Of a stretch of DNA of 23,837 bases, positions 122-21,263 are shown piece after piece. This DNA is from a virus. Positions within the stretch are counted from its first letter, which is position 1, and every line of letters starts with the position of its first letter. The notes under the pieces were generated by a model. That model ran no database searches, was not told where the DNA came from, and saw only the letters and a list, made by a program, of their open reading frames with translations. A program made the translations under genes and the position numbers. Where the stretch lies: positions 1-23,837 of IMG/VR virus record IMGVR_UViG_3300022074_000379, one strand, 5' to 3'.

Positions 122-436
122 ATGCTCACCTTTCCACTTATGCAACTTTCAAGGGATCTTTTCATTCACATTCCCTCTCGCACTTCCGAGTGTGTTGAGG
201 AATTATGGGTGAATCCTATCACTGGTGTTGTCCAATGTGCGTTTGCTAAGGGCAACGTATACGAATACACCCACGTTTCACGGCGTGCAATTCTCAACTT
301 ACTTTCGCAGCCACAAATGTCGTTAGGTTTTTGGGTTAATCGCAACCTTTTAGCCTACGATTGCAAGTCTAAAAAGTACGGGTATTCTTACACTTTGCCC
401 GTAATTCTTGCTACTTCCATGCCTTATCTTTCCTGA
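122..436 (+). CDS. KTSC-domain small protein
   Basis: The ORF gives 104 residues. From about residue 24 it matches the KTSC pattern seen in phage and bacterial proteins and at the C-terminus of some lysyl-tRNA synthetases: VNPITGVVQCAFAKGN, then VYEYTHVS and a late aromatic stretch LGFWVNRN. KTSC is a small beta-rich domain of unclear, possibly nucleic-acid-binding function, so the domain call is safer than any role. The start is uncertain. ATG 122 is the longest reasonable choice; ATG 140 (98 residues) follows a CCTTTCCACTT leader resembling those before other early genes. No Shine-Dalgarno is visible. The stop codon at 434-436 lies inside the tRNA-mimic hairpin at 432-470. Confidence 0.6.
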   Translation: MLTFPLMQLSRDLFIHIPSRTSECVEELWVNPITGVVQCAFAKGNVYEYTHVSRRAILNLLSQPQMSLGFWVNRNLLAYDCKSKKYGYSYTLPVILATSMPYLS

Positions 437-470
437 TGGTGTAGCCAGGGTTCGACTCCCTGGCCAGGTA
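432..470 (+). ncRNA. tRNA mimic: acceptor plus T-arm minihelix (copy 1)
   Basis: CCTG (432-435) pairs with CAGG (465-468). GCCAGGG (444-450) pairs with CCCTGGC (458-464) around the T-loop TTCGACT. From the T-stem on, the geometry is that of a tRNA: 5-bp T-stem, 7-base loop, 7-base 3' acceptor strand and a discriminator-like A470. D and anticodon arms are replaced by a 9-base linker ATGGTGTAG. The element overlaps the stop codon of the KTSC gene. An almost identical architecture with the same 11-mer TGATGGTGTAG occurs at 21224-21263. Acceptor-plus-T-arm helices are known minimal RNase P substrates, so a processing site is a reasonable inference. Confidence 0.55.
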
Positions 471-627
471 TTGGGTTTTCCTCAGTTTCCCATACCAAAC
501 TGTGAGGGCTTGGCCTCCCGTAGATAAAAAGAGCCAAGGCAGCCGGAAGCCTCTCTAAGACCGGTGGGTTTTCGCTAGTCCGTTTCATCCCTCTAAAAAA
601 TCGGCGTGTTTCCCGATCACTAACGGG
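467..627 (+). other. Structured intergenic region with serial hairpins
   Basis: This stretch follows the tRNA mimic and precedes the next gene; I see no credible ORF in it. Possible stems are GGTAT-GGG (467-475, one bulged T) with CCCATACC (489-496), CTTGGC (509-514) with GCCAAG (533-538), CCGG (543-546) with CCGG (561-564), and ATCGG (600-604) with CCGAT (613-617). The last competes with CCCG (612-615) pairing CGGG (624-627). The first hairpin uses bases 467-468, which also close the acceptor of the upstream tRNA mimic, so the two folds exclude each other. It may be an RNA element or a long 5' leader. No known riboswitch consensus was recognised. Confidence 0.4.
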
Positions 628-694
628 CAAGAAAGTGAGCGCTTGGATGTTTGACATCGAAAGACTCACACCTTTTGTTCACAACCTACCACCA

Positions 695-1087
695 ATGATC
701 ACATCAACACGTGAACTTGAACTCACAAACTGGTACGACAGTTTGTCAGAAGAGAATCAATCTCTTTATGACATGATTGAAGAACGCTGTCCTGAGTTTA
801 CAAAATCAGACGGCGAAGATTGTCAAGCTTTTATGGATGAACTCGCAGAGTATGGCATCACAACTGCTCAACAGTTTGAGGATTCCTTTTACTATTCAGA
901 AGACTACCGACCCGATTTATCACACTATAGTGAGTTCGTTGAGTATGTAGTCACTGAAGTTAACTGCGAGACAGTGCCTGAGTATCTTGTTATTGACTGG
1001 CTAGCCAGTTGGCGTAGGAACTATAGGCATGATTTCATTGACATTGAACACGATGACATTGTGTACTTCTTCAACCGTAACTTTTGA
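695..1087 (+). CDS. Acidic ArdA-like antirestriction protein (putative)
   Basis: The product is 130 residues from ATG 695 and strongly acidic. Its second half (FEDSFYYSEDY, a valine-rich SEFVEYVV segment, VPEYLVIDW, then DFIDIEHDDIVYFFNRNF at the end) resembles the C-terminal part of ArdA-type antirestriction proteins common in cyanophages. Those proteins mimic DNA and block type I restriction enzymes, as T7 Ocr does in the equivalent early position. ATG 695 follows the leader CCTACCACCA, similar to leaders before ATG 2260 and ATG 19314. ATG 647 (146 residues) is in frame, but the extra residues look like translated non-coding sequence. The family call is from pattern memory and is moderate. 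Confidence 0.55.
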   Translation: MITSTRELELTNWYDSLSEENQSLYDMIEERCPEFTKSDGEDCQAFMDELAEYGITTAQQFEDSFYYSEDYRPDLSHYSEFVEYVVTEVNCETVPEYLVIDWLASWRRNYRHDFIDIEHDDIVYFFNRNF

Positions 1088-1098
1088 CTCTCTTATTC

Positions 1099-1114
1099 AA
1101 CCCTTCCACTCAGG
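1099..1114 (+). promoter_or_regulatory. TTCCACT leader motif (copy 1)
   Basis: AACCCTTCCACTCAGG lies 5 bases before the ATG at 1119. Close copies are at 1795-1810, 4250-4264 and 5819-5834, all outside or at the edge of genes. It could be part of a promoter or a non-Shine-Dalgarno translation leader; the sequence alone cannot tell which. Confidence 0.3.
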
Positions 1115-1118
1115 TACT

Positions 1119-1796
1119 ATGAAAATCCGAGTACACATCACGCCAAAGTCTGGCAACGATAAGACTGGCCCGATTCCTGTCACTACTAGTGAGCGAGCAT
1201 CCTGTCCCACTACCTGTGGCCTTTATGACAAGGGCTGCTATGCAAAATCAGGACCGCTTGCGCTCCATTGGCGCAAGGTTTCATCAGGTGAGCGTGGCAC
1301 AGATTGGCAAGGTTTATGCGACTTTGTCCAGTCTCTGCCTGATCGCCAGCTATGGCGTCACAACCAAGCCGGTGATTTACCTCACTTGTTTGGTGACATC
1401 GACCATTCAAACATGGCGCACTTAGTTGTCGCTAACACTGGCAAACGTGGTTACACATACACACACCACGTTCTCAACAAACACAATGTTGACATCATTC
1501 AGCGATCCAATCGCCAAGGTTTCACGATCAACGCGAGCACAGAATCTCTCGACGCGGCAGACGCTGCCATCGAGAAAGGTTTGCCTGCTGTTTGTGTTGT
1601 GCCAAACAATAAACCTGTCCCGAAGGTATCACCTAAGGGTCATAAGGTTGTGGTCTGTCCTGCACAAGTGCGTAACACCACATGTGCCGAGTGTAAGTTA
1701 TGCAGCGTTGCAAAACGTACCTGCATTGTTGCATTCAAGGCACACGGTTCTGCTGCCAAGCATGTCAACGCTTTGGTGTCTGATTCTCTTAATTAA
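1119..1796 (+). CDS. Cysteine-rich conserved phage protein
   Basis: A 225-residue protein with two conserved cysteine clusters. Near residues 28-40 it has CPTTCGLYDKGCYA, and near residues 183-205 it has CPAQVRNTTCAECKLC followed by SVAKRTCIVAFKAHG. Between them are the characteristic strings LWRHNQAGDLP and a KRGYTYTHH segment. This architecture is widespread in phages and plasmids (I believe it is the DUF7227 or GP88-like group) and has no established function. The cysteine spacing suggests a metal or iron-sulfur site, which is inference. The start at 1119 sits just after the leader motif AACCCTTCCACTCAGG. The gene overlaps nothing downstream and is followed by two hairpins. Confidence 0.75.
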   Translation: MKIRVHITPKSGNDKTGPIPVTTSERASCPTTCGLYDKGCYAKSGPLALHWRKVSSGERGTDWQGLCDFVQSLPDRQLWRHNQAGDLPHLFGDIDHSNMAHLVVANTGKRGYTYTHHVLNKHNVDIIQRSNRQGFTINASTESLDAADAAIEKGLPAVCVVPNNKPVPKVSPKGHKVVVCPAQVRNTTCAECKLCSVAKRTCIVAFKAHGSAAKHVNALVSDSLN

Positions 1797-1846
1797 CCCT
1801 TCCACTTAGACAATAAGTGGCGGGTTTCCTAAGGGATTCATCCCTT
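1795..1846 (+). promoter_or_regulatory. TTCCACT motif plus two hairpins
   Basis: AACCCTTCCACTTAGA (1795-1810) overlaps the end of the cysteine-rich gene. Its CCACTT (1802-1807) pairs with AAGTGG (1815-1820). A second hairpin, AAGGGA (1831-1836) with TCCCTT (1841-1846), is followed by a pyrimidine-rich tract. It could be a weak terminator, an RNA processing site or a promoter region. Confidence 0.35.
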
Positions 1847-1866
1847 GTCCTTTCCTTTCACCTTCC

Positions 1867-1995
1867 ATGCTCAACATCCACTATCAACAAACCGAGAACG
1901 GCAAAGTTCTTACTCAAACCTGTTATGTACAGGACCGCAAACACCTTTACGTAACTCTTCTCAACAAGGGTTACATCATCGTTGGAGAATCCTAA
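1867..1995 (+). CDS. Hypothetical protein, 42 residues
   Basis: The ORF reads MLNIHYQQTENGKVLTQTCY and ends LLNKGYIIVGES. It starts at ATG 1867 after the pyrimidine-rich leader CCTTTCACCTTCC, with no Shine-Dalgarno. Its stop codon TAA shares an A with the ATG of the next gene (TAATG), the junction type used throughout this genome, which supports it as a real gene. The composition suggests a small beta-strand protein. I do not recognise the family. Confidence 0.55.
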   Translation: MLNIHYQQTENGKVLTQTCYVQDRKHLYVTLLNKGYIIVGES

Positions 1996-2147
1996 TGACT
2001 TTCAAATTCATTCTTGAATCAAAAGATAACTGGGGAAAGTTTTCCTTCGTTACTGTTGAAGATTGCAGGGACATGGATGATGCAATCAATCATGTCAAAC
2101 GTGAATTTCCCGATTTCACAATTGATCAAATCACTCCAGTTCAATGA
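1995..2147 (+). CDS. Hypothetical protein, 50 residues
   Basis: The product begins MTFKFILESKDNWGKFSFVT and ends FPDFTIDQITPVQ. The pattern is two short beta strands, an acidic turn, one helix (DMDDAINHVKREF) and a final strand, a compact fold plausible for a real small protein. It is coupled by TAATG to the gene before and by ATGA to the gene after. No family was recognised and no function can be offered. Confidence 0.6.
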   Translation: MTFKFILESKDNWGKFSFVTVEDCRDMDDAINHVKREFPDFTIDQITPVQ

Positions 2148-2311
2148 CACCACATCAGCAATACCTTATCCAGGCATGTGCTGACAAGAAAGGTATGAGT
2201 TATGAGTTATTCATTTCATACCTTATTGAACTTGCACTCAAACAACTATCCACCACAAAATGTCACAAGTCACTTTCTACTTCGGCAACGAAAAACGTCA
2301 GGGTAAGTTAG
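2144..2311 (+). CDS. Hypothetical protein, 55 residues
   Basis: Its start overlaps the previous stop in ATGA (2144-2147). The first 40 residues (MTPHQQYLIQACADKKGMSY, then a hydrophobic helix FISYLIELALKQL) look like a small two-helix protein and recall the helices of short ribbon-helix-helix regulators, but the strand is not clear. The last 52 bases overlap the next gene (2260) in another frame, and the tail beyond residue 40 is low in character, so the functional part is probably the N-terminal two thirds. Confidence 0.45.
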   Translation: MTPHQQYLIQACADKKGMSYELFISYLIELALKQLSTTKCHKSLSTSATKNVRVS

Positions 2312-2430
2312 ACCCTGTCACGTATCCAGCTTCTGAACATCTCATTGATTCATTGTCAGATGACAATCTCTGTGAATTCTTTGGTCACTGCATTGAGAAC
2401 CTAGTTTACACAGAAAGGGTGTACACATGA
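2260..2430 (+). CDS. Hypothetical protein, 56 residues
   Basis: It starts MSQVTFYFGNEKRQGKLDPV, continues with an acidic helix (ASEHLIDSLSDDNLCEFFGH) and ends VYTERVYT. The leader TATCCACCACAAA before ATG 2260 matches the CCACCA-type leaders of ATG 695 and ATG 19314. The stop is shared with the next start in ATGA (2427-2430). It overlaps the previous gene by 52 bases. The family is unknown. Confidence 0.55.
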   Translation: MSQVTFYFGNEKRQGKLDPVTYPASEHLIDSLSDDNLCEFFGHCIENLVYTERVYT

Positions 2431-2774
2431 GAGTTCGTGTTTACTACAACCTAACAAAACATGTCTGGAGTGTACAAAAACACATTCCAGGCAAAGGTTG
2501 GCGAGTCGCGGGTCATCTTCCGCGGCTTGCACTTTACAACGCAAGAACTGTGATCATGAAACACGGTCAGCAGCGCACAAGATCAGAAGGTAAGAAGTAC
2601 GTTCACGCTTTCATTGAAGGTGAATTGAATGACTCTGAAGTTCTGGTCAGTAAGTCACACAAACGCATCACGTACAATCCGCACCGTGATGATGATTTTG
2701 TCTGGAAAGATTCAGGCGAGTTGTTCACAACATCTCCTGAGGTCATCCTTTCAGATAAAGCACACGCACTCTGA
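2427..2774 (+). CDS. Conserved marine-phage protein, 115 residues
   Basis: The N-terminus RVRVYYNLTKHVWSVQ, then GWRVAGHLPRL, the basic middle (a run of RTRSEGKK then VHAFIEGEL) and a late RITYNPHRDDDFVW segment form a pattern I recall as a recurrent hypothetical family in marine cyanophages and pelagiphages. No function is established. The protein is basic with alternating strands. It is translationally coupled to the gene before by ATGA and followed by 12 bases of leader before the next ORF. Confidence 0.7.
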   Translation: MRVRVYYNLTKHVWSVQKHIPGKGWRVAGHLPRLALYNARTVIMKHGQQRTRSEGKKYVHAFIEGELNDSEVLVSKSHKRITYNPHRDDDFVWKDSGELFTTSPEVILSDKAHAL

Positions 2775-2786
2775 CATCTTTCACAA

Positions 2787-2981
2787 ATGAGAATCGATCC
2801 ATCCACACGTATTGACGTTCGCTGCAAATCTGCACAGTGGGAAAACACCACAACTGATGCAGAACGCGCTGTTGATCTTGCTTATGACCTAAGTGAGGAG
2901 CACGGCGCGGATGTTGACTTGTATTTTAACGCTACTGGTCAACTTTACATGACTGTTTCAAACTATCCGTGGCATTCATGA
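2787..2981 (+). CDS. Hypothetical protein, 64 residues
   Basis: An acidic product: MRIDPSTRIDVRCKSAQWEN, then a helix AERAVDLAYDLSEEHG and strands VDLYFNATGQLYMTVSNYPW. The strand-helix-strand-strand layout looks like a genuine small fold. ATG 2787 follows the leader CATCTTTCACAA; no Shine-Dalgarno is visible. Its stop overlaps the next start in ATGA (2978-2981). The family is not recognised. Confidence 0.55.
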   Translation: MRIDPSTRIDVRCKSAQWENTTTDAERAVDLAYDLSEEHGADVDLYFNATGQLYMTVSNYPWHS

Positions 2982-3130
2982 CACACGATGACTTGCTAGA
3001 ACTGCAAGATACAGCCCTCCGTGATTATTACCGAGGGCTTCTTGATAGTAGGCAACTTCTCAACATCATTCACACACTTGACAGACGATCACATCAGTAT
3101 GGCTCCAAAATCGAAGGATTGGTTGATTAG
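2978..3130 (+). CDS. Hypothetical helical protein, 50 residues
   Basis: The product MTHDDLLELQDTALRDYYRG continues as one long helix with heptad-like leucines (LLDSRQLLNIIHTLDRRS) and ends KIEGLVD. It is probably a helical hairpin or coiled coil. It is coupled upstream by ATGA and overlaps the next ORF (3099) by 32 bases in a different frame. No family was recognised. Confidence 0.5.
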   Translation: MTHDDLLELQDTALRDYYRGLLDSRQLLNIIHTLDRRSHQYGSKIEGLVD

Positions 3131-3329
3131 GAATGCAATTTATTGCTGGATGCATTACTACAAAGACTCAAATTCAACTCTCAACAGTCAGTATCAACAA
3201 CTTTTGCAAAATGACTCAGACATCGACCCGCCAAAAGTTCGCACACGCGGACGTCCGGCGAAAAGACAAAGGACGAAGAAAACCTCAACAATTGAGGCAG
3301 AGAAAACAAGCACGGAAGGCTCTACTTAA
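3099..3329 (+). CDS. Small protein with AT-hook-like motif
   Basis: A 76-residue product. An aromatic N-terminal half (DWLIRNAIYCWMHYYK) is followed by a basic segment with VRTRGRPAKRQRTKK near residues 49-63. RGRP flanked by basic residues is the core of an AT-hook, a minor-groove DNA-binding motif, so a small DNA-binding protein is plausible. It is overlapped from 3211 by a different ORF in another frame, and only one of the two may be expressed. This frame has the better amino-acid character. Confidence 0.5.
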   Translation: MAPKSKDWLIRNAIYCWMHYYKDSNSTLNSQYQQLLQNDSDIDPPKVRTRGRPAKRQRTKKTSTIEAEKTSTEGST

Positions 3330-3384
3330 CAAAATTCACAATCACGATCGTCATGCCACTATTGGGTCAGGTAAAAGAATATGA
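3211..3384 (+). CDS. Hypothetical basic protein overlapping the AT-hook ORF
   Basis: A 57-residue, highly basic product (KFAHADVRRKDKGRRKPQQL, then RQRKQARKALLNKIHNH). It shares 119 bases with the 3099 ORF in another frame and overlaps the next gene by 32 bases, the same overlap length as between the 2978 and 3099 ORFs. It may be real, since such overlaps are common here. It may also be a by-product of the lysine- and arginine-rich sequence read in a second frame. Confidence 0.35.
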   Translation: MTQTSTRQKFAHADVRRKDKGRRKPQQLRQRKQARKALLNKIHNHDRHATIGSGKRI

Positions 3385-3526
3385 AGTAATTCTTGATGAC
3401 GGTAAGGAGCAATGGTCAGAAATTGTCTACGCTCCCGATTCTGAACACGCCGCATGGTCTGCTCTTGAATTGTCCACAAACCGTAGAGCACATTTAAAGG
3501 ACGTAAAAAGAACTTATGAGTGGTAA
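3353..3526 (+). CDS. Hypothetical protein, 57 residues
   Basis: The product MPLLGQVKEYEVILDDGKEQ, then WSEIVYAPDSEHAAWSALEL and a basic end, looks like a real alpha-beta mini-domain, with two strands followed by an amphipathic helix. It ends at 3526 and overlaps the next gene's start at 3516 by 11 bases. No family was recognised. Confidence 0.6.
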   Translation: MPLLGQVKEYEVILDDGKEQWSEIVYAPDSEHAAWSALELSTNRRAHLKDVKRTYEW

Positions 3527-3842
3527 GTATTATCCAAATAATTGGGCAAGGTATAAAGCTGCGCCTGATGAATTCTTCGAGCCCCATACGTTCATGGAAA
3601 TCATGGCATACAAATTGCTTGCTTGGGAACTAAAACCAGGCATTTGTGCAATCATTCGTGCCACAAATCATGATACAAAAAAGACTCAAGAGTTTGTCTA
3701 CAAACGTAAAAGCGCAGCAGATAAAAGGATCGAAGATTTAATCATGGATCCTAACGTTGAATTTACTGTATGCACACCCGAACTGATTCAAGCAGTCTCT
3801 GCACACGATACCGATTCTGATTATGAACCTAGTAACTTTTGA
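3516..3842 (+). CDS. Conserved cyanophage protein, 108 residues
   Basis: MSGKYYPNNWARYKAAPDEF, then PHTFMEIMAYKLLAWELKPG, CAIIRATNHDTKKTQEFVYK and a NVEFTVCTPELI segment. This sequence pattern recurs as an uncharacterised protein in many cyanophages, including myoviruses, so it is a conserved host-range or takeover accessory of unknown role. Mixed alpha/beta, no membrane segment. It overlaps its upstream neighbour by 11 bases and its downstream neighbour by 20. Confidence 0.75.
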   Translation: MSGKYYPNNWARYKAAPDEFFEPHTFMEIMAYKLLAWELKPGICAIIRATNHDTKKTQEFVYKRKSAADKRIEDLIMDPNVEFTVCTPELIQAVSAHDTDSDYEPSNF

Positions 3843-4005
3843 TCGTCTGTCAACAAAGCTACAGCATGAAATTTTAGGTCATCCGCATAGGGATGAGCTT
3901 ATTTGCCTAATGCATGAACAATTGTTAGATTATCGGCAGTCATGTAAGGCAGTGAGCAGTGAGCGGACTCAACACCAAGCGCCTTGCAGTTTTGATGCAG
4001 AGTGA
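3823..4005 (+). CDS. Hypothetical protein, 60 residues
   Basis: It starts within the last codons of the previous gene (ATG 3823). The first 40 residues (FDRLSTKLQHEILGHPHRDE, then LICLMHEQLLDYRQ) are helical and plausible. The tail after residue 44 overlaps the next gene's GTG start region and is low-complexity. No family was recognised. A short coupling ORF is possible. Confidence 0.4.
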   Translation: MNLVTFDRLSTKLQHEILGHPHRDELICLMHEQLLDYRQSCKAVSSERTQHQAPCSFDAE

Positions 4006-4210
4006 CTGTGTGAAATTGTGCAAGTTGATAGCTGTGCATAAAGGCATCAGCATGTCTGAACTTGCCAACACCGCGCTGCAAAAGTACATAGCGAGCGAAT
4101 TATTAGCTGATGACACCCTATACAACTTGGTATCAAACATGGTAACTACGCCAGGTAGCTTGACTCATGATGGACTTTGTAAAATCGCGGATTTACGTCG
4201 GAATCGATAA
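3959..4210 (+). CDS. Ribbon-helix-helix DNA-binding protein (putative repressor)
   Basis: The 83-residue product begins at GTG 3959. Residues about 4-45 follow the ribbon-helix-helix layout: a short basic strand (TKRLAVLMQSD), helix 1 (KLCKLIAVHKG), a turn GISMSEL, helix 2 (ANTALQKYIASELL). Such proteins act as dimers that insert the N-terminal strand into the major groove of operators, as in Arc or CopG. The C-terminal half is unassigned. ATG 3995 would remove the strand and is therefore unlikely as start. It lies just upstream of a MarR-like gene and the integrase, so it is a candidate lysogeny or early-gene regulator; that role is inference. Confidence 0.6.
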   Translation: MSGLNTKRLAVLMQSDCVKLCKLIAVHKGISMSELANTALQKYIASELLADDTLYNLVSNMVTTPGSLTHDGLCKIADLRRNR

Positions 4211-4249
4211 CGTTTCCTTTTGGGATTTTTGGCAATTTAACAATTGCAC

Positions 4250-4264
4250 AACCCTCCACTTGGG
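4250..4264 (+). promoter_or_regulatory. TTCCACT-like motif before the MarR gene
   Basis: AACCCTCCACTTGGG lies in the 89-base gap between the RHH gene and the MarR-like gene and differs by few bases from the copies at 1099, 1795 and 5819. Confidence 0.3.
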
Positions 4265-4299
4265 CAAGTTCCGTCTAGAGTTGTGTTGTTCATTACCCG

Positions 4300-4662
4300 T
4301 TGATCTTGGATCCTCTTCGCAGGCAAGTTACCGACGATCAGCTTGTAAAACTCCTGAAAGTCATCGAGACACTGAGGATCTTGGACCGTGAGATGCCAGC
4401 ACAGCTGCTCTCAACGTTCCTGTATGTCGCTAGCCACGACGGTTGCCACAAGCCTGCACTCTCGGAGGATTTGGACTTCTCAGAAGCGTCATCGTCAAGA
4501 TGCACGGATTGGTTGTCCAAAAAACACCGGATTAAAGGACGTGATGGCTTAAACCTAATCACCAAGGAGGCTGATCCAGCAAACAGACGCAGACACGTCT
4601 TGAGATTAACTCCTCAAGGCAAATTACTTGCACAACAACTTCGCGACATTCTCTATGAATGA
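4300..4662 (+). CDS. MarR-like winged-helix regulator
   Basis: About 120 residues. From MPAQLLSTFLYVASHDG a helix leads into the winged-helix core: PALSEDLDFSEASSSRCTDW as helix-turn-helix, then the wing (LITKEADPANRRRHVLRLT) and the dimer helix (GKLLAQQLRDIL). This is the MarR-type layout also seen in other marine cyanophages. No ATG precedes residue 32 (ATG 4393), yet the residues before it (LVKLLKVIETLRILDRE) are a good amphipathic helix, so translation probably starts at TTG 4300 or TTG 4306. The stop overlaps the integrase start. The position next to integrase suggests control of lysogeny or early transcription, which is inference. Confidence 0.7.
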   Translation: MILDPLRRQVTDDQLVKLLKVIETLRILDREMPAQLLSTFLYVASHDGCHKPALSEDLDFSEASSSRCTDWLSKKHRIKGRDGLNLITKEADPANRRRHVLRLTPQGKLLAQQLRDILYE

Positions 4663-5599
4663 GTTTAAGACGTGGGGTCAATGCTTTGACTTCACATCAA
4701 CAAACAGAGAGGAATGGGTCAATGGTCGTGGTCGAAAGACTGCGTTAATCAATGCCAACCATTTCACACAGATCAAGGGGCGTATGTTCCCCATCAAAGA
4801 CATCACACAAGGTGTCATGGACTCTTTAAAAACAGAGTTACGTGAAACACGTGAGATGGAAGATGGGACAATCAATAAGGTGTTTCAGTATGTGCAAACA
4901 ACGCTGAATCATTGCATTGATGTTGGCATGGTTCCTTGTCAAGATCCAAAAAAAGCTTGGATCAATGGCATGGGTCGTTTTGCCTTCAAAAAACTGAAGG
5001 TGTCACGCAAAACAAAAGAGTGCCTCACGTTGGCCCAGGTCGATCAGATGGCTGCCACGGCAACCAGCTTGTTTTCCAATCAAGCCTTGTCTGATTCCAT
5101 CCTGGTGTCTGCCTGGTCTGGTATGGGCTGGGCTGAGTTCTCACAACTCACCACGAGCGATGTTGTGCTCGACACGAAGCACCCATTCATTGGTATTGGC
5201 ACACAACGCAACGGCTGGACTCTTAAGAAGGAGTGCAGACGCCGCAATGTGTACTTTCCGGCAGACAGTGCCGGTTACCAGCGTGTGGTGCCCATCCTGA
5301 GCCGCTATGTGGACCTCCTGGGGCCTTCTGACCTGATCCCCTTCCTAGGGGACAATTGGCAGTCTCAGGACCGCCACAGAGAGCAGTTCAACAGGGTCAG
5401 AGATTACTTGGGGTTTCCTGATGTGATCACGCCCTACACATTGCGCCGAACGTATGCATCAGCGTTGGCTGCCAATGATGTTCACCCGTCAAAAACACAC
5501 AAGTTGATGGGTCACTCACAGATGTCCACCACACTGGGTTATTACACCTACGTGGACGATGGGCAGCTGGTCGATGCCATGTCACGCTTGGAAGTCTAA
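4655..5599 (+). CDS. int: Tyrosine-family integrase with altered active site
   Basis: A 314-residue site-specific recombinase. Its C-terminal catalytic domain begins near residue 130 (LTLAQVDQMA). Box II LRRTYASAL contains R264, LMGHSQ gives H287 and TTLGYYTY gives the likely nucleophile Y296, nine residues after H287. Two catalytic positions differ: the TGxR arginine is glycine (SGMGWAE, G158) and the HxxR histidine is tyrosine (Y261). Tyrosine is sometimes tolerated at the second position, but loss of the first arginine is unusual. ATG 4655 overlaps the MarR gene by 8 bases. An attP lies about 115 bases downstream. GC content and codon use look more host-like than in the flanking genes. Confidence 0.88.
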   Translation: MNEFKTWGQCFDFTSTNREEWVNGRGRKTALINANHFTQIKGRMFPIKDITQGVMDSLKTELRETREMEDGTINKVFQYVQTTLNHCIDVGMVPCQDPKKAWINGMGRFAFKKLKVSRKTKECLTLAQVDQMAATATSLFSNQALSDSILVSAWSGMGWAEFSQLTTSDVVLDTKHPFIGIGTQRNGWTLKKECRRRNVYFPADSAGYQRVVPILSRYVDLLGPSDLIPFLGDNWQSQDRHREQFNRVRDYLGFPDVITPYTLRRTYASALAANDVHPSKTHKLMGHSQMSTTLGYYTYVDDGQLVDAMSRLEV

Positions 5600-5637
5600 C
5601 GGTGTCTAAGAACCCTTTCTGGTAAGCTCTACCGGCT

Positions 5638-5669
5638 GAAGCGATCAAGTCTCAAAACAGTCTCGCTTC
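5638..5669 (+). terminator. Hairpin after integrase, possible terminator
   Basis: GAAGCGA (5638-5644) pairs with TCGCTTC (5663-5669) around an 18-base loop and is followed by a TGTCTCTCTT pyrimidine tract. It may end the integrase transcript. The T-run is interrupted, so it would be a weak intrinsic terminator. Confidence 0.35.
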
Positions 5670-5712
5670 TGTCTCTCTTGTAAGACACTTGTCATTGCAA
5701 GGGATCTCGCCC

Positions 5713-5753
5713 GCGGATGTGGCGGAATTGGTAGACGCGCTAGTTTCAGGTTC
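5713..5753 (+). other. attP: attP candidate: 5' half of a tRNA-Leu gene
   Basis: The 41 bases have the form of a bacterial tRNA-Leu from its first base through the anticodon loop: acceptor strand GCGGATG, then TG, the D-arm GCGGAATTGGTAGACGC, and anticodon-loop TTCAGGT (anticodon CAG). The sequence then departs from tRNA, with no complementary anticodon or acceptor strand, so it is not a working tRNA. A roughly 42-bp tRNA-Leu identity downstream of integrase is the known attP arrangement in the cyanophage P-SSP7. The host tRNA sequence is not in the window, so the exact core is an estimate. Confidence 0.8.
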
Positions 5754-5779
5754 CTCCGTTTCCAAGCTTTCATAAGTGC

Positions 5780-5808
5780 AAGGGTCAAGGACACAAACCT
5801 TGGCCCTT
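5780..5808 (+). terminator. Strong hairpin between attP and RNA polymerase gene
   Basis: AAGGGTCAAGG (5780-5790) pairs with CCTTGGCCCTT (5798-5808), an 11-bp stem with one G-U pair and the 7-base loop ACACAAA. It is not followed by a T-run, so it may be an RNase III-type processing site or a Rho-assisted terminator. After integration it would stand between the host tRNA-Leu promoter and the phage RNA polymerase gene. Confidence 0.45.
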
Positions 5809-5818
5809 CAGTCGTATC

Positions 5819-5855
5819 AATGCTTCCACTAAGGCTAACAGTTGCACAAGTGGAA
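5819..5855 (+). promoter_or_regulatory. TTCCACT motif forming a hairpin before RNA polymerase
   Basis: AATGCTTCCACTAAGG (5819-5834) is a copy of the leader motif. Its TTCCACT (5824-5830) pairs with AGTGGAA (5849-5855) around an 18-base loop. The 293-base gap 5600-5892 contains this, the hairpins at 5638 and 5780 and attP; no ORF of substance is seen there. Confidence 0.35.
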
Positions 5856-5892
5856 TAGTACGAGTCTACCGAACGATCTAACGCGAGACTGA

Positions 5893-13706: not shown

Positions 13707-13957
13707 AAGTTTGGGACTTTGTACGTGATCAATCTTTAAATTATCATCTTGGTAATGCTGTTAAATACATCTGCAGAGCTGGTCACAAAGATTCTTATGC
13801 AGATGATTTAAAAAAAGCTATCCACTATTTAGAAAATGAATTATCACATGCACTTGCAGAGCGAAAGTCTAATGCAACAGGCGGAAACTTTCCGCCAGGC
13901 ATATGGTCTTCCATCGTCCCAGGCTCGGATGAGGATACAGAAAGCTTTGATCGATGA
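13667..13957 (+). CDS. DUF3310 family protein
   Basis: The 96-residue product carries the DUF3310 signature: LNYHLGNAVKYICRAGHKD, then YADDLKKAIHYLENELSHAL. This small helical family (sometimes labelled nucleotide-kinase-like) is common in phages near nucleotide metabolism genes, but its activity is not firmly established. The C-terminal 30 residues, glycine- and serine-rich, are read from bases that also encode the start of the MazG-like gene in another frame. It overlaps NblA by 40 bases. Confidence 0.8.
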   Translation: MAYSPRYYTRGSVEVWDFVRDQSLNYHLGNAVKYICRAGHKDSYADDLKKAIHYLENELSHALAERKSNATGGNFPPGIWSSIVPGSDEDTESFDR

Positions 13958-14210
13958 AGAATGGTCAGAGTTTCATCAGGCATTTCATTTTGAAAGTAGT
14001 GAGAACCAACTAAAAGAACTAGCAGATCTTGTGTACGTCTGTTATCAATACGCCGCCAATCTTGAATGGGATTTAGACGAAGCACTTAAACGTGTACACA
14101 AATCAAACATGTCAAAGCTTGATGAATATGGCAAACCTATTTATCGAGCTGACGGCAAAGTCCTTAAAGGACCAAATTACAAACCACCAATTCTCACTGA
14201 TTTAGTGTAA
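13872..14210 (+). CDS. MazG-like nucleotide pyrophosphohydrolase
   Basis: An all-helical product of about 112 residues from ATG 13872. The metal-binding pair characteristic of the MazG / HisE superfamily is present: DEEWSEFHQAF (ExxE) and LKELADLVYVCYQY (ExxD). The C-terminal segment VHKSNMSKLDEYGKPIYRAD, then GKVLKGPNYKPP, is typical of phage versions. These enzymes hydrolyse (d)NTPs or related nucleotides to monophosphates. Phage MazG has also been discussed as acting on alarmone or nucleotide pools. The start is uncertain: ATG 13836 and 13848 are also in frame. The stop is coupled to the next gene by TAATG. Confidence 0.8.
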   Translation: MQQAETFRQAYGLPSSQARMRIQKALIDEEWSEFHQAFHFESSENQLKELADLVYVCYQYAANLEWDLDEALKRVHKSNMSKLDEYGKPIYRADGKVLKGPNYKPPILTDLV

Positions 14211-15589: not shown

Positions 15590-16293
15590 ACCCGTACGAA
15601 AAACTAATTACCAGAAAAAGAAAGTGGACCCCTGTTGCTGTAACAGGTGGTCCTGTGACTGAAGGGACAGAGGACGCCATCAGTCGGTGCCTTGCATTGC
15701 GTGTCCTGGAGATTCCGGTTGGTGACTTCATCAGTGAAGCAACTAATAAGGAAGTGCCAGAGTCCGCGAGAAAGATTCTCAGTATGAACATTACTGATGA
15801 AATTAATCATGACATTGCACTCAACTATGTCGCAGACACATTTGATGTGGATGCAAAAACAACAAAAGAAGCAGAGAGCATTGCGGAAGCTTGGATCAAT
15901 CATCCAGAGCATCCCATTGTCAAAGCGATGGTACTTGAGCGAAGTATCTTCTTCACTATCTTGCCATTCTTCAGAGCCTATGGAAACTCAGGTATGAGGA
16001 CAGTTTCAGCAGATGTGTCACGAGATGAACAAATTCATGTTGCAACTAATTCTCTGGTTTGTGCTGAGTTGGGGCTTAGTTTTTCTCCATCACTGGATAA
16101 ACTGAGGAAGGCTACTGCGTATTGGTTGTTCTCACCACTACGTGGTTCTGCAAAACTATCTACAAAGTTCTGGACAGAATCAAGTGATCGCTTGATGTAT
16201 CAAGGTAAAGCACCTGAGCTGTCATTTACTAAGGCCGCACGTATGCCTGCATTCTTTGAACATGATGCAAGAAATCTACCCCAATATGCTTGA
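15586..16293 (+). CDS. nrdB: Ribonucleotide reductase class I small (beta) subunit
   Basis: A 235-residue ferritin-like metalloprotein that would form the radical-generating partner of the upstream alpha subunit. Metal ligands are visible as DEINHD (ExxH, helix B), the Glu of VLERSIFF, and SRDEQIHV (ExxH, helix E). The residue four after the first His, where E. coli NrdB has its radical Tyr122, is Leu (HDIAL). It therefore lacks the canonical tyrosyl radical site, as do some other beta subclasses. ATG 15586 overlaps the nrdA stop in ATGA; the in-frame TTG 15577 is unnecessary. Shorter than E. coli NrdB (376). Confidence 0.85.
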   Translation: MNPYEKLITRKRKWTPVAVTGGPVTEGTEDAISRCLALRVLEIPVGDFISEATNKEVPESARKILSMNITDEINHDIALNYVADTFDVDAKTTKEAESIAEAWINHPEHPIVKAMVLERSIFFTILPFFRAYGNSGMRTVSADVSRDEQIHVATNSLVCAELGLSFSPSLDKLRKATAYWLFSPLRGSAKLSTKFWTESSDRLMYQGKAPELSFTKAARMPAFFEHDARNLPQYA

Positions 16294-16456
16294 GGTCTTC
16301 GGTATGGAGGCCAGAGCTGTACTCAATGAAATGGAAGATAGATTCCCATCTATTACTCCATCTCCAGATGACACAATTGAAAAAATTATGTACCGCTCTG
16401 GTCAACGTTCTGTTGTGGAGTGGCTTGTAAACCGACTAGAGAATAACGATGGCTAG
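16262..16456 (+). CDS. Small conserved cyanopodovirus protein, 64 residues
   Basis: An acidic helical product: NMLEVFGMEARAVLNEMEDR, then FPSITPSPDDTIEKIMYRSG and QRSVVEWLVNRLEN. I recall close relatives at the same site in other marine cyanopodoviruses, but no function. ATG 16262 overlaps nrdB by 32 bases; ATG 16286, inside the nrdB stop region, is the alternative start. The next gene begins 8 bases before its stop codon ends. Confidence 0.65.
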   Translation: MMQEIYPNMLEVFGMEARAVLNEMEDRFPSITPSPDDTIEKIMYRSGQRSVVEWLVNRLENNDG

Positions 16457-17753
16457 ACGCAGAAAGAGTAAGCCAAGACGAGCACCGAAAAGAGTTGCTA
16501 AAAGAAAAATTACACGTTCTTTTAAACGTAAGTCACCAGCTAAAAAAGCTGTAAAACGTGCTCTCAAAGATAACAAAGTTACTAAAAAAGAAATAAGGAC
16601 TATTGTCAGGAAGGGTGGCAGTAGAAAGCAAGTTCAATCAATTAGAAAAGCTGCTAAAAACACAAAAGGTCTGAAAATTGGAAAAGGTGTAGACAATAAA
16701 AAAGAAGTAAGAAAGATTTTTAAAAGGAATAAAAATAAAGGCAAAGCTGACAATCTCAGATCCGATCAACTTAAATTAACCCGCACTAGCGATGGCGGCG
16801 GTGGTGGCGGAACCTCCGGCGGAGGCGGTGGTAACTCTGGTGGAAACGGTGGCGGCGATGGCAAAGGCAATGGTGGCAAAAAAGGCGTCAAAGTAACGGC
16901 AGATGCGCTGTCTGGTGGTTATGGTCACAAAGATTTTGAACGCAGAGAAACCAAGCTGAAACAAAGAGCTAGGGGGTATGCAAATATTTACGGAGGAGAG
17001 AACAAACAATCACGAAAGTTTCTCAAGGCTTTAGCTGACCAAGCTACTACCCGTATGAAGATCAAACCTAGCGAATATGGTCGCAAGGGTAAAAAGGCAA
17101 AGTTCAGTGATTTGAGTCTTGCTCAACAATATGATCGTAATTCTGCAAAATTAGAAAAGAAACTGTCTAATCCCATGAATTCATTCATGGAGAAACAGGC
17201 TAAAAAATATAATAGCGGCGATGGTCCTATGGCATATCTTTCTGCTTTCAAAAATAAAGCTAACCCTGAGTTTGCAGAATTTAATGCAAGCCGTATGCAA
17301 AAGTTCGCTCAGTCTGGATTAACTGGTAAGGGCAAGGGCACCAGGAAGATGAGGAGACTTGCTACAAATTTAGGTATTAGCGACAAGCGTTTCGAGAAGA
17401 GGCGCAATCCAGGCAAAGTCTTTGGCATGGCAAGAAATAACCTGCAGAAAGCTGCTAAAAAAAATAAAAACTATACTCTCGGTAAAGCATCGGAAAGGTT
17501 GGATAAAATAATGAGTGGAAAAATGGAACCTGGACGTAACGGACCTGGACGTAAAGTACCTGGACGTAAAGTACCTGGAAATAGGAATTCCACTGCCATG
17601 TTTGCAACACCTTATGAAACAAATCGTTCCGGTGCCATGTCTATAGTTCCTTATAAAAATAGGAAAGCAGCTAGAAAAGCAGCAAAAAGAAAGTCTCGTT
17701 TTCCTACCGGAGGCGCATCAGCAGTGATAGCCCAAGCTTATAGTTCAGTATAA
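16449..17753 (+). CDS. Very basic virion-module protein with Gly-rich linker
   Basis: The 434 residues are dominated by Lys and Arg. The N-terminal 110 residues resemble histone H1 or protamine tails (MARRRKSKPRRAPKRVAKRK and onward). A glycine-rich linker follows at about 115-145. The middle 300 residues are mixed helical and basic. Near residues 361-376 there are three tandem copies of the 5-residue unit PGRKV or PGRNG. It sits immediately before the portal gene, where T7 carries small virion genes. A structural, genome-binding or internal capsid role is inference. No enzymatic motif was found. Confidence 0.75.
   Translation: MARRRKSKPRRAPKRVAKRKITRSFKRKSPAKKAVKRALKDNKVTKKEIRTIVRKGGSRKQVQSIRKAAKNTKGLKIGKGVDNKKEVRKIFKRNKNKGKADNLRSDQLKLTRTSDGGGGGGTSGGGGGNSGGNGGGDGKGNGGKKGVKVTADALSGGYGHKDFERRETKLKQRARGYANIYGGENKQSRKFLKALADQATTRMKIKPSEYGRKGKKAKFSDLSLAQQYDRNSAKLEKKLSNPMNSFMEKQAKKYNSGDGPMAYLSAFKNKANPEFAEFNASRMQKFAQSGLTGKGKGTRKMRRLATNLGISDKRFEKRRNPGKVFGMARNNLQKAAKKNKNYTLGKASERLDKIMSGKMEPGRNGPGRKVPGRKVPGNRNSTAMFATPYETNRSGAMSIVPYKNRKAARKAAKRKSRFPTGGASAVIAQAYSSV
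17529..17578 (+). repeat. 15-bp tandem repeat, about 3.3 copies
   Basis: The unit CCTGGACGTAAAGTA occurs twice exactly (17544-17558, 17559-17573), once with two changes (17529-17543), and then as a partial copy. It encodes repeated PGRKV in the basic protein. Confidence 0.85.
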
Positions 17754-17756
17754 ATT

Positions 17757-19304
17757 ATGTCAGCTAAATCACGATACGACGCTCTTGCTAGTAGCCGTAA
17801 CCAATTTCTACAAACTGCAATTGATGCAGCTAAATTGACTATTCCTTATTTGATGAAGCATGACGAAGAGGATAGTAACTATAAAACTCTTTTAACACCG
17901 TGGCAATCAGTCGGTGCTAAAGGAGTCTCTACTTTGGCAAGTAAATTAATGCTTGCTTTGTTACCTCCTCAGACAAGCTTTTTTAAATTACAGATTGATG
18001 ATGCAACACTACTGTCTGGTGAGTTGAATCCTGCGATAAGATCAGATCTTGATCTTTCATTTGCAAAGATTGAACGTACTATCTTGGAATCTATTGCAGC
18101 TTCTGACGATCGTGTTGTTGTTCACCAAGCATTGAAACACCTCGTTGTTTCTGGTAATGCACTCATCTTTATGGACAAGGATAAACTTAAGTTATATCCA
18201 TTGAACAGATACGTTGTAGAAAGAGACGGTCTAGGAAACGTAATTGAAATCGTTACCAAAGAAAAAATACATAAAAAACTACTGAAGTCTGTTCTTCCTG
18301 AACCTGATCCTTTCAAGACTACTGATGAAAGTACTGGTTACAGTCGTGATGATATTGATGTCTATACGCACATCAAGCGTGACAACAATAGATTTATTTG
18401 GCACCAGGAAGTTTACGACAAAATTATTCCAGGATCACAAGGTAAAGCTCCATTAGATTCAACGCCATGGCTCCCACTAAGGTTCAATACTGTTGATAAT
18501 GAACCACTAGGTAGAGGCAGGGTTGAGGAGTACATTGGAGATCTCAAAAACCTAGAAGCATTATCTCAGGCTATTTGTGAAGGCTCTGCTGCTGCAGCTA
18601 AAGTTGTATTTACTGTTTCTCCTTCATCTACTACTAAGCCGTCAACATTAGCCAAGGCTGGTAACGGAGCAATCATTCAAGGCCGACCAGATGATATTGG
18701 AGTTGTACAAGTTGGTAAAACAGCAGATTTTGCTACTGCATATCAAATGATCCAACAACTGGAACGTAGGCTAAGTGAAGCATTCTTAGTCCTTACGGTA
18801 AGGCAGTCGGAACGTACTACTGCAGAAGAAGTACGAATGACTCAAATGGAACTTGAACAACAATTGGGAGGATTGTTCTCACTTTTGACTGTTGAGTTTC
18901 TTGTTCCTTATCTCAACCGTAAGTTGAGCGTGTTCCAAAAAACAGGAGAGATACCACGTCTTCCTAAAAACATTGTCAAACCTACAATTGTTGCTGGTGT
19001 CAATGCATTAGGCCGCGGCCAAGATAGAGAGAGTTTGCAGATGTTTATGCAGACTTTAGCTCAAACAATGGGTCCGCAAGCTATTCAGCAATATATTAAT
19101 CCTGAAGAGGTTGTCAAACGATTGGCGGCTGCACAGGGTATTGATGCTCTCAATCTTGTCAAGACTGCACAGCAACTTGAGCAAGAGAAGCAGGCTGAGA
19201 TGCAACAACAGCAGGAGATGGCTCTTACACAACAAGCAGGCCAATTCGCATCAGTTGAGCAACGCGCCCAGGCGCAAGGTCAACCACAACAACCAGAACA
19301 GTAA
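17757..19304 (+). CDS. Portal (head-tail connector) protein, T7 gp8-like
   Basis: The 515 residues match T7-type portal proteins in length and order. Features seen are the N-terminal SRYDALASSRNQFLQTAIDA, a TLLTPWQSVGAKGVSTLASK segment, LALLPPQTSFFKL, LYPLNRYVVERDG, and the late AEEVRMTQMELEQQLGGLFS. Twelve copies form the ring through which DNA enters and leaves the capsid. The C-terminal 60 residues are glutamine-rich and probably disordered. It is separated from the basic gene by 3 bases and from the scaffold by 9. Confidence 0.93.
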   Translation: MSAKSRYDALASSRNQFLQTAIDAAKLTIPYLMKHDEEDSNYKTLLTPWQSVGAKGVSTLASKLMLALLPPQTSFFKLQIDDATLLSGELNPAIRSDLDLSFAKIERTILESIAASDDRVVVHQALKHLVVSGNALIFMDKDKLKLYPLNRYVVERDGLGNVIEIVTKEKIHKKLLKSVLPEPDPFKTTDESTGYSRDDIDVYTHIKRDNNRFIWHQEVYDKIIPGSQGKAPLDSTPWLPLRFNTVDNEPLGRGRVEEYIGDLKNLEALSQAICEGSAAAAKVVFTVSPSSTTKPSTLAKAGNGAIIQGRPDDIGVVQVGKTADFATAYQMIQQLERRLSEAFLVLTVRQSERTTAEEVRMTQMELEQQLGGLFSLLTVEFLVPYLNRKLSVFQKTGEIPRLPKNIVKPTIVAGVNALGRGQDRESLQMFMQTLAQTMGPQAIQQYINPEEVVKRLAAAQGIDALNLVKTAQQLEQEKQAEMQQQQEMALTQQAGQFASVEQRAQAQGQPQQPEQ

Positions 19305-19313
19305 TCCACCACA

Positions 19314-19955
19314 ATGGCAGAAACACTAACCAATCAACAAGAAGTCTCTACAGAACTGAATGCAGATGAGCAAGAATCTCTGCAGATCGGTGAGCAGATG
19401 GATCAAGATCAGTCACAGATGTTGGCTGGCAAATATAAAACACCTGCTGATTTAGAAAAAGCATACCTTGAGTTGCAATCTAAACTGGGTTCACAGGATC
19501 GAGACACAGAGGAATCTGAAGAATCTGATGAAGTAGTTGATGAAACTGCTTCTGAAGAACAAGAAGAAGAAACTTCTGAAGAAGAAATCGCTGAACTTAC
19601 AGACGGTGATATTGAATTCCTACATGAATTGGCAGGAGGAAAGGAAGGTTACAACACAATGGTGTCTTGGGCCTCTGAAAATTTCGATGCTGAGGAAGTA
19701 AACATGTACGACACAGTGATGGATTCAGGAGATCCTGCTGCTATTTATTTTGCTGTTCAATCACTTGTGTCTAGATACGGTGAGGCTAACGGTACTGATG
19801 GTGAATTGCTTGTTGGTACTGCCGCTTCTAATACTGTTGATGCTTTTAAGAGTCAAGCAGAACTTGTCGCTGCAATGAGTGACCCTCGTTACGAAAATGA
19901 TCCTGCATATCGAGAAGCACTGCTTCTTAAACTTGATAAATCTGACATCTTTTAA
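19314..19955 (+). CDS. Capsid assembly scaffolding protein, T7 gp9-like
   Basis: A 213-residue, strongly acidic protein with a long Glu-rich middle (EESEESDEVVDETASEEQEE), a helix-rich C-terminal half and YKTPADLEKAYLELQSKLGS near residues 42-61. The AYLELQ-type segment and the acidity are typical of T7-like scaffolds, which shape the procapsid and then leave. ATG 19314 follows the leader AATCCACCACA, resembling early-gene leaders. It sits between portal and capsid as expected, but five basic mini-genes and a lysin intervene before the capsid. Confidence 0.88.
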   Translation: MAETLTNQQEVSTELNADEQESLQIGEQMDQDQSQMLAGKYKTPADLEKAYLELQSKLGSQDRDTEESEESDEVVDETASEEQEEETSEEEIAELTDGDIEFLHELAGGKEGYNTMVSWASENFDAEEVNMYDTVMDSGDPAAIYFAVQSLVSRYGEANGTDGELLVGTAASNTVDAFKSQAELVAAMSDPRYENDPAYREALLLKLDKSDIF

Positions 19956-19957
19956 TC

Positions 19958-20074
19958 ATGCCAAACGTAAACGGTAAAAAGTTTCCATACACTCCCGCTG
20001 GTAAAAAAGCAGCTAAATCTTACGCTGCACTTCAAAAGAAAAAGAAGGGCAGTCAATATAAAAAGGTGATGTAA
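19958..20074 (+). CDS. Tiny basic protein 1 (38 residues)
   Basis: MPNVNGKKFPYTPAGKKAAK followed by SYAALQKKKKGSQYKKVM. Two bases after the scaffold stop, and coupled by TAATG to the next mini-gene. The FPYTPAGKKAAK pattern recurs in marine cyanophage mini-proteins. About one third Lys. The function is unknown; nucleic-acid binding or a capsid-associated peptide is possible. Confidence 0.65.
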   Translation: MPNVNGKKFPYTPAGKKAAKSYAALQKKKKGSQYKKVM

Positions 20075-20133
20075 TGGCACACAAAGGAAAAGGCTCCTGT
20101 AAAGGAGGGAAAAAAGGTGGCTACAAAAAGTAG
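20074..20133 (+). CDS. Tiny basic peptide 2 (19 residues)
   Basis: MAHKGKGSCKGGKKGGYKK, only Gly, Lys and a few others. The start is coupled by TAATG to the gene before. The 3' end overlaps the GTG start of the next gene by 17 bases and contains its Shine-Dalgarno. It may be a leader peptide rather than a functional protein. Confidence 0.4.
   Translation: MAHKGKGSCKGGKKGGYKK
20104..20109 (+). promoter_or_regulatory. Strong ribosome-binding site for GTG 20117
   Basis: GGAGGG sits 7 bases before GTG 20117. Clear Shine-Dalgarno sites are rare in this window, so this one supports the GTG start of the 87-residue basic protein. Confidence 0.7.
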
Positions 20134-20380
20134 TAAACGAAAAAGAAAAAGTGTAAGTTTGAAAATCGGCGTTCACAAATCACGTAAGGGTGGCCTTACT
20201 GCAGCTGGACGCCGTAAATACAACAAAGCAACAGGATCAAATTTGAAGGCACCACAGCCCGGTGGTGGTGCTCGCAAGCGTTCTTTTTGTGCTCGTTTCA
20301 AAGGTATGAAAGGACCGATGAAAAAACCTAACGGCAAGCCAACCCGTAAAGCATTGGCACTTCGCAGATGGAAATGTTAG
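20117..20380 (+). CDS. Basic conserved phage protein (DUF6321-like)
   Basis: The 87-residue product begins at GTG 20117. The core GLTAAGRRKYNKATGSNLKA, then PQPGGGARKRSFCARFKGM and a terminal KALALRRWKC, is a recurring pattern in cyanophages and other marine phages (I believe DUF6321). Very basic, no enzymatic motif. A conserved virion or DNA-associated role is likely but unproven. The good Shine-Dalgarno upstream suggests high translation. Confidence 0.75.
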   Translation: MATKSSKRKRKSVSLKIGVHKSRKGGLTAAGRRKYNKATGSNLKAPQPGGGARKRSFCARFKGMKGPMKKPNGKPTRKALALRRWKC

Positions 20381-20382
20381 TT

Positions 20383-20532
20383 ATGCCTGGACATTATGGT
20401 GGGATGAAAAAGCCCGCAGCTAAAAAAAAATTGAGTGCTGGTCAGCGTAAGATTGCTGGTCAAGCTGGCAATCCAAACAAGATCGAAGCTTCAGATTTCA
20501 AAAAACTACGTGCTAAGCGAGGCAAAAAGTAA
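20383..20532 (+). CDS. Tiny basic protein 4 (49 residues)
   Basis: MPGHYGGMKKPAAKKKLSAG followed by QRKIAGQAGNPNKIEASDFK and a basic end. The MPGHYG start motif recurs in cyanophage virion-region mini-proteins. ATG 20383 is 2 bases after the previous stop; ATG 20374 and 20368 are in frame and would overlap the previous gene. The stop is coupled by TAATG to the next mini-gene. Confidence 0.65.
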   Translation: MPGHYGGMKKPAAKKKLSAGQRKIAGQAGNPNKIEASDFKKLRAKRGKK

Positions 20533-20681
20533 TGGCTAAACCTGGACTGTATGCAAACATTCACGCCAAGCGTAAGCGTATTGCTGCTGGTAGTGGAGAG
20601 AAGATGAGAAAGCCTGGTGCAAAAGGTGCGCCTACAGCAGCAAACTTTAAACGTGCTGCAAAAACTGCTAAGAAAAAATAA
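20532..20681 (+). CDS. Tiny basic protein 5 (49 residues)
   Basis: MAKPGLYANIHAKRKRIAAG followed by SGEKMRKPGAKGAPTAANFK and RAAKTAKKK. I recognise this sequence as highly conserved in cyanophages of several morphotypes, with no assigned function. About a third of its residues are basic. It is coupled by TAATG on both sides. The conservation across phages with different capsids points to a general role, not a T7-specific one. Confidence 0.8.
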   Translation: MAKPGLYANIHAKRKRIAAGSGEKMRKPGAKGAPTAANFKRAAKTAKKK

Positions 20682-21229
20682 TGTCTATCAACCTCACTGA
20701 CGCTGCTCAGTATTTCAAGGCTCTACCACATCAGGTAGATGCCTTTGCTTACTTACAACAAAATACAGATCCTGTTATTCTTGCTGAATTTGCTCGTCTA
20801 TATCGTAATAACCTTGAGACTAACGAGTTTACAAATGATTGGGACAGTGTTGTCAGATTGGCTACGACTGCTGGAGCTAAGTTCCCTGAACTAGTTGCTG
20901 CTCAATGGGCACTTGAGTCAGGTTGGGGACAACACGTAAGTGGTAAAAATAACTACTTTGGTATCAAAGGTAAGGGCACTGTTCATCAAACCTGGGAGGA
21001 CTACGGTAATGGTCCTGTCACTATTTATGATGAGTTTAAAGATTTTGATACTCCTTATGATTGTATCAATGAGCTAGTTACCAAATGGCATAAAGATTAC
21101 AGAGGATATGTCGGTGCTAATTTTGCGAGCGATCGTAATAGTGCCGCTTATCACCTCAAAGCTGAAGGGTATGCAACAGATCCAAACTACCCACAAAAAC
21201 TTATCTCTTTAATGAATAAGCACGCTTGA
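20681..21229 (+). CDS. Glucosaminidase-type lysin (endolysin or virion hydrolase)
   Basis: The 182-residue product has a glucosaminidase (GH73, FlgJ-like) domain. The catalytic-region motif PELVAAQWALESGWGQHVSG is followed by KNNYFGIKGKG, a Tyr-rich middle and a late SAAYHLKAEGYATDPNYPQK. The Glu of ALESGWG is the likely acid catalyst. Such enzymes cut glycan strands of peptidoglycan. There is no signal peptide or membrane segment, so release would need a holin, which was not found in the window, or it acts from the virion at entry. The place between scaffold and capsid favours a structural or entry role. Its stop lies in a tRNA-mimic hairpin. Confidence 0.85.
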   Translation: MSINLTDAAQYFKALPHQVDAFAYLQQNTDPVILAEFARLYRNNLETNEFTNDWDSVVRLATTAGAKFPELVAAQWALESGWGQHVSGKNNYFGIKGKGTVHQTWEDYGNGPVTIYDEFKDFDTPYDCINELVTKWHKDYRGYVGANFASDRNSAAYHLKAEGYATDPNYPQKLISLMNKHA

Positions 21230-21263
21230 TGGTGTAGAGGAGGTTCGATTCCTCCTCCAAGCA
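21224..21263 (+). ncRNA. tRNA mimic: acceptor plus T-arm minihelix (copy 2)
   Basis: GCTTG (21224-21228) pairs with CAAGC (21258-21262). GAGGAGG (21237-21243) pairs with CCTCCTC (21251-21257) around the T-loop TTCGATT. Linker ATGGTGTAG (21229-21237) is identical to that at 436-444, and a discriminator-like A follows at 21263. The two T-stems differ in sequence but keep all pairs, which is what conserved RNA structure looks like. It overlaps the lysin stop codon. Confidence 0.6.

Follow-up and report, generated by a model that had tools for sequence, protein, structure and literature searches.

Why would a T7-like cyanophage place half of a transfer RNA (tRNA), the acceptor stem and T-arm, across the stop codons of two unrelated genes? 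The question was raised by 23,837 nucleotides of viral DNA (IMG/VR record IMGVR_UViG_3300022074_000379, positions 1 to 23,837; this whole stretch is called the window), in which a first-pass annotation had described two such tRNA-like elements and proposed that RNase P cuts phage transcripts there. Our analysis indicates that the elements are probably phage t-elements, tRNA mimics that host RNase Z and/or RNase P would cut, separating messenger RNAs (mRNAs).

Two compact elements in the window

The two elements had been said to share a linker, a 7-bp T-stem, a TTCGAYT loop and a discriminator-like A, and this was borne out on the sequence. The core of element 1 (432-468) reads cctg-ATGGTGTA-gccaggg-TTCGACT-ccctggc-cagg and is followed by discriminator A470; its acceptor is 4 bp, the outermost T/T of the 431-469 frame being unpaired (stems of 4+7 bp). 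Element 2 reads gcttg-ATGGTGTA-gaggagg-TTCGATT-cctcctc-caagc, followed by discriminator A21263 (stems of 5+7 bp). A strict scan of the window for a T-stem, a T-loop and an adjoining acceptor of at least 4 bp returned these two matches only; among 400 dinucleotide shuffles of the window, just one gave any match at all. The first reading had overlooked a third element (16-83), which is of long form but built on the same acceptor/T-arm plan (Table 1).

Covariation and linker constraint

The exact pattern GATGGTGTAG-N4-GGTTCGANTCC, which fixes the linker, the loop and four pairs and leaves eight pairs free, matched 99 viral contigs, and the full fold was present in 95. Across 48 distinct sequences, pairing was kept in 99.7% of stem cells, with 155 double-sided changes. 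Covariation was 0.739, compared with 0.192 in column shuffles (0/500 reached the observed value), and never exceeded 0.17 in controls with a slid partner. The family thus confirmed that the stems differ in letters yet remain paired, and the check that had been suggested, a search for covarying homologues in other phages, returned many of them, the opposite of the result that would have spoken against the element. Chance similarity was ruled out by the covariation, the co-segregation of linker and fold, and the window shuffles.

Linker statistics were taken from samples of matches in scans with the linker partly freed. Among the matches listed, the fold was present in 53 of 57 with a linker A-N-G-G and in 0 of 31 with other linkers; likewise, it was present in 62 of 65 with U-G at linker positions 5-6 and in 0 of 7 without it. 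The consensus linker, A-N-G-G-U-G-N-A, is similar to the D-loop of tRNA (A14..G18-G19..A21). In tRNA, G18-G19 dock on the T-loop, and by analogy we infer that the linker G-G may dock in the same way. Linker consensus and fold predicted each other, the result to be expected of a linker that imitates the D-loop. A minigene ATG-GTG-TAG was rejected as the cause of linker conservation, because other linkers (ATGGTGCA/AA, AAGGTGTA) retained the fold.

Three forms of the element were distinguished by linker length: 8 nt (the window), 12-13 nt with CUGGUG (Syn5, S-TIP37) and 14-20 nt, frequently with a small hairpin (P-SSP7, S-SBP1, P-SSP2, P-GSP1). Model R1 misses most long forms; these came from the structure scan and their boundaries are less certain. 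Two related elements with a linker like ATGGTCGCA were also seen in two contigs of one actinobacterial genome (L422, L425).

Placement at gene ends

Gene ends were counted for 88 distinct compact elements as a sense frame of at least 35 codons stopping within -12..+14 of the element 5' end. Such a stop was found in 81 of 88 elements, compared with 17 of 88 in the antisense mirror and 19% at shifted positions. In most cases the stop lay inside the element, and its offset was exactly +6 in 42 of 88. In the window, the TGA codons of the open reading frame (ORF) at 122-436 (434-436) and of the endolysin gene (21227-21229) both lie inside their elements, as had been claimed; the naming of the first gene as KTSC needed correction, its match to that domain (E 0.08) being below the Pfam cut-off. 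The coding strand of a 60-kb phage contig (L210) has ten copies, most of which immediately follow successive genes; the opposite strand has none.

Termination or pausing of the phage RNA polymerase was also considered, as was a translation role based on the overlap of TGA with ATG and on the two-codon frame ATG GTG TAG; the TGATG overlap at the +6 offset and the GC-rich stem agree with it. However, the stems are followed by ATTGGG and ATTTGGC with no U-run, so the elements do not have the form of intrinsic terminators. The linkers ATGGTGCA, ATGGTGAA, AAGGTGTA and ACGGTGTA, and longer ones, disrupt the two-codon frame with the fold retained, and in the Corynebacterium copies (described below) the upstream stop precedes the element by about 10 nt. 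A role of this kind is decidedly improbable. Sense-strand gene-end placement fits transcript processing, the part of the first-pass proposal that stood; RNase P as the sole enzyme is the less convincing part.

Distribution among phages

The element is carried by the isolates P-SSP7, S-SBP1, Syn5, S-TIP37, P-GSP1 and P-SSP2; its positions include 603 and 20632 in P-SSP7, 19299 in S-SBP1 and 19842 in Syn5. A survey of the sequence ahead of the capsid gene covered 80 metagenomic relatives and 14 named cyanophages. A tRNA-like element was present in 45 (42 by scan; L056, L073 and L196 by eye), and 39 carried a hairpin with loop CACCTCAGAGTCGGA instead; none had both, one had neither and nine sequences were truncated. 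The alternative hairpin has a covarying stem of 9-10 bp and a nearly invariant 15-nt loop, and occurs in one copy per genome (e.g., L189, L191, L194, L198).

Next to the first genes, additional copies are present in S-SBP1 (929, 1325), S-TIP37, S-RIP2, 9515-10a, P-GSP1 and P-SSP7; others precede psbA in one contig (L085) or occupy many different contexts, and copies span unrelated phages. The element also turned up in the genomes of three Corynebacterium and in one single-cell contig of Prochlorococcus. The Corynebacterium loci look like prophages, and the neighbour gene belongs to PHROG 5931. The element was absent from the 291 other cyanobacterial genomes searched (0/291). Among Actinomycetota beyond these Corynebacterium copies, only weak matches were obtained, partly resembling ends of transfer-messenger RNA (tmRNA). 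Pattern matches in a Lactobacillus-phage-like contig (L350) are candidates only.

This distribution bears on two other explanations. Attachment sites (attP) or tRNA-gene remnants of integration might be suspected, as a tyrosine integrase is encoded in the window and the T-arm resembles tRNA 3' ends. This was contradicted by stems that vary freely yet pair, by several copies per phage (ten in L210), by the absence of copies from cyanobacterial chromosomes and by the occurrence across unrelated phages, and is hardly credible. The freed element might alternatively act in trans, e.g., as a small RNA decoy for the CCA-adding enzyme, RNase P or EF-Tu. The top half of a tRNA is the part these proteins bind, and some contigs hold many copies; however, the examined cyanopodoviruses have few, and neither the position at gene borders nor the hairpin immediately 3' would matter to a decoy. 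We regard a decoy or other trans role as improbable.

Stack end, flanking bases and the proposed cut

Together, acceptor and T-stem form a stack of 12 bp, the length that tRNA reaches with 7+5 bp. A possible 13th pair occurred in 9 of 64 elements versus 21 expected; this avoidance indicates that the end of the stack is fixed at 12 bp. N73 was A in 54 of 88 elements and the next base (+1) was U in 72 of 88; CCA came next in only two of the 88. In some phage contigs (L090, L098, L116, L133, L150, L162) an encoded CCA (CATCC-ACCA) follows the element, unlike in the cyanophage copies. A hairpin often begins 0-6 nt 3' of the element, more frequently than in shuffles, with a mean score of 13.4 compared with 8.6 (higher in 50 of 58). 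At the capsid site, this hairpin is part of a conserved leader domain. Structured non-coding sequence had been claimed downstream of both elements in the window; it was well supported at 21265-21324 and rejected at 464-610, where the fold energy was no better than in shuffles (z +0.75).

The elbow is the point from which RNase P measures along the acceptor/T stack; RNase Z clamps it too, and CCA acts on RNase Z as an antideterminant (PMC4919913). Both enzymes are present in cyanobacteria (PMC10989914). The U after the discriminator, the rare CCA and the 3' hairpin point at least equally to RNase Z acting at the 3' end. We therefore propose a cut by RNase Z past the discriminator base, given the elbow-measuring enzymes, the fixed stack end, the N73 and +1 bases, the CCA antideterminant and the known t-elements. 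The element, of 39 nt or slightly longer, would mimic the acceptor/T-arm half of a tRNA at gene ends within polycistronic phage RNA, its D-loop-like linker rebuilding the elbow. Host tRNA end-processing enzymes would recognise the elbow and the 12-bp stack, and RNase Z would most likely cut past the discriminator, so that the downstream message (capsid, psbA and others) would start with a 5'-terminal hairpin. RNase P may optionally cut the 5' side and free the element. By extension, we lean towards a gene-punctuation system shared by unrelated phage lineages, in which a 39-nt elbow with a 12-bp stack follows successive genes and host tRNA maturases split the polycistronic RNA, comparable to tRNAs in mitochondria.

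Several observations weigh against processing at these elements. Stops within the element make part of the gene-end association automatic, as the 19% control shows. A 5' cut by RNase P would leave an upstream message without its stop codon, which speaks against an obligatory 5' cut and, together with the 3' flank, makes RNase P less convincing than RNase Z. The U at +1 may partly stem from common ancestry of the cyanophage copies. Lastly, about half of the relatives carry the different hairpin at the capsid site, indicating that this site does not strictly need a tRNA mimic.

An uncut stability device, in which the compact tRNA-like fold and the hairpin after it shield intact polycistronic RNA from exonucleases or RNase E, would account for the very stable 12-bp stack, the gene-end position and the adjoining hairpins. 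Host RNase E is raised by P-SSP7 infection (PMC10989914), and phage RNA may need protection. However, a plain GC-rich hairpin would suffice for this purpose; the T-loop, the D-loop-like linker, the fixed 12 bp and the N73 and +1 bases are features read by tRNA enzymes and go beyond the needs of stability. This explanation is unlikely, and t-elements are preferred.

Comparison with known systems

The proposed role is equivalent to the one that RNase III sites have in T7. There, RNase III recognises imperfect hairpins that recur between genes as processing signals; the phage elements are likewise recurrent and intergenic, whereas the T7 sites lack tRNA features. The tRNA-like domain of tmRNA also combines an acceptor and a T-arm with a stem-less D-loop, and model R1 weakly matched sequences like tmRNA 3' ends (33.7 bits). 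However, CCA, a tag frame and pseudoknots belong to tmRNA, and the 39-nt elements have neither a tag-encoding frame nor a 3' CCA. Nor are they functional tRNAs: ARAGORN found no tRNA in the window, and elements of 39 nt have no anticodon arm or cloverleaf. No Rfam 15 family scored above its gathering score at the elements. The mascRNA/menRNA family (MALAT1, NEAT1; RF01684) is a short tRNA-like RNA at a transcript end, as here, but is eukaryotic; the Syn5 element scored 23.4 bits (E 1.5) against RF01684, whose gathering score is 42.5, and the window gave no match.

In plant mitochondria and Haloferax, cuts by RNase P and RNase Z at t-elements set transcript ends (PMC11658184, PMC4326828). Those t-elements are tRNA-like folds adjoining genes with CCA unencoded, as in the phage elements, for which the acceptor/T-arm fold was confirmed by covariation and the sense-strand gene-end location by the counts above. 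The plant t-elements are organellar and homologous to tRNA genes. By contrast, the phage elements measure 39 nt, have a D-loop-like linker, lack an anticodon arm and often enclose the upstream stop, and cutting is what their form suggests. Phage RNAs cut by host RNase P include C4 RNA, M3 RNA and T4 gene 32 mRNA (PMC11143913), which are single cases, unlike a repeated intergenic minihelix family.

Neighbouring genes and other features

Table 1. Positions of the elements, genes and other features (window coordinates unless a contig is named).
Feature	Position	Strand	Remarks
Third tRNA-like element, long form	16-83	+	acceptor GGGCGG/CCGCCC, linker hairpin TGTACT..AGTACA, T-loop TGCGACT, then A
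ORF, weak KTSC-domain similarity, PHROG 7365 (function not known)	122-436	+	between two tRNA-like elements
Compact tRNA-like element 1	431-469	+	linker ATGGTGTA, 7-bp T-stem, loop TTCGACT
Tyrosine integrase	4628-5599		T7-like cyanophage; likewise in P-SSP7
Glucosaminidase-type endolysin	20681-21229	+	PF01832, 7e-23
Compact tRNA-like element 2	21224-21262	+	5-bp acceptor, linker ATGGTGTA, 7-bp T-stem, loop TTCGATT
Conserved structured leader	21265-21324	+	TTGGC...GGATACC...GCCGTCTAGACGGTGGGAAAGACCACA; begins 2 nt past the discriminator
Major capsid protein gene	21380-22564	+	downstream of element 2
Glutamine-II riboswitch	L187:158-211, L188:190-244, L189:9-63, L193:134-187, L194:4-87, L198:172-223
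Mini-tRNA array	L386:7280-9040		IMG/VR 3300035517_000474, 67 kb

Homologues of the ORF at 122-436 occur at the left end of cyanopodovirus genomes, and in S-SBP1, S-TIP37, P-SSP7, S-RIP2 and 9515-10a they are adjoined by long-form elements. Binding of the elements by this KTSC-like protein was considered on the basis of gene position and the sub-threshold domain match.

The leader domain upstream of the capsid gene was kept in dozens of relatives; in 26 sequences, three pairs showed compensatory changes. It contains the palindromic CCGTC(TA/AT)GACGG, in the window and relatives, and had no Rfam match. In many cyanopodoviruses, the stretch ahead of the capsid gene contained a glutamine-II riboswitch scoring above threshold. 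A separate contig (L386) held an ORF-free tandem array of about 12 mini-tRNAs of about 45 nt, with a 7-bp acceptor, a linker often containing GG and a 5-bp T-arm; most had a TTGTGAAAT-like conserved-loop hairpin ahead, and ARAGORN found no tRNA in the array.

Biological meaning

The literature, as far as it was covered, holds no account of such elements in phages. They are in kind a t-element and new in form, host range and arrangement. They constitute a phage-specific RNA family overlooked by Rfam and tRNA finders, and a very small natural mimic of the tRNA elbow. Because cultured phage/host pairs carry the element (P-SSP7 with Prochlorococcus MED4, Syn5 with Synechococcus WH8109, S-SBP1 with Synechococcus WH7803), the proposal is directly testable. 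If it is true, the abundant T7-like phages of marine picocyanobacteria process their mRNA through host tRNA enzymes, ones that a cell can hardly lose, replacing the RNase III sites of T7.

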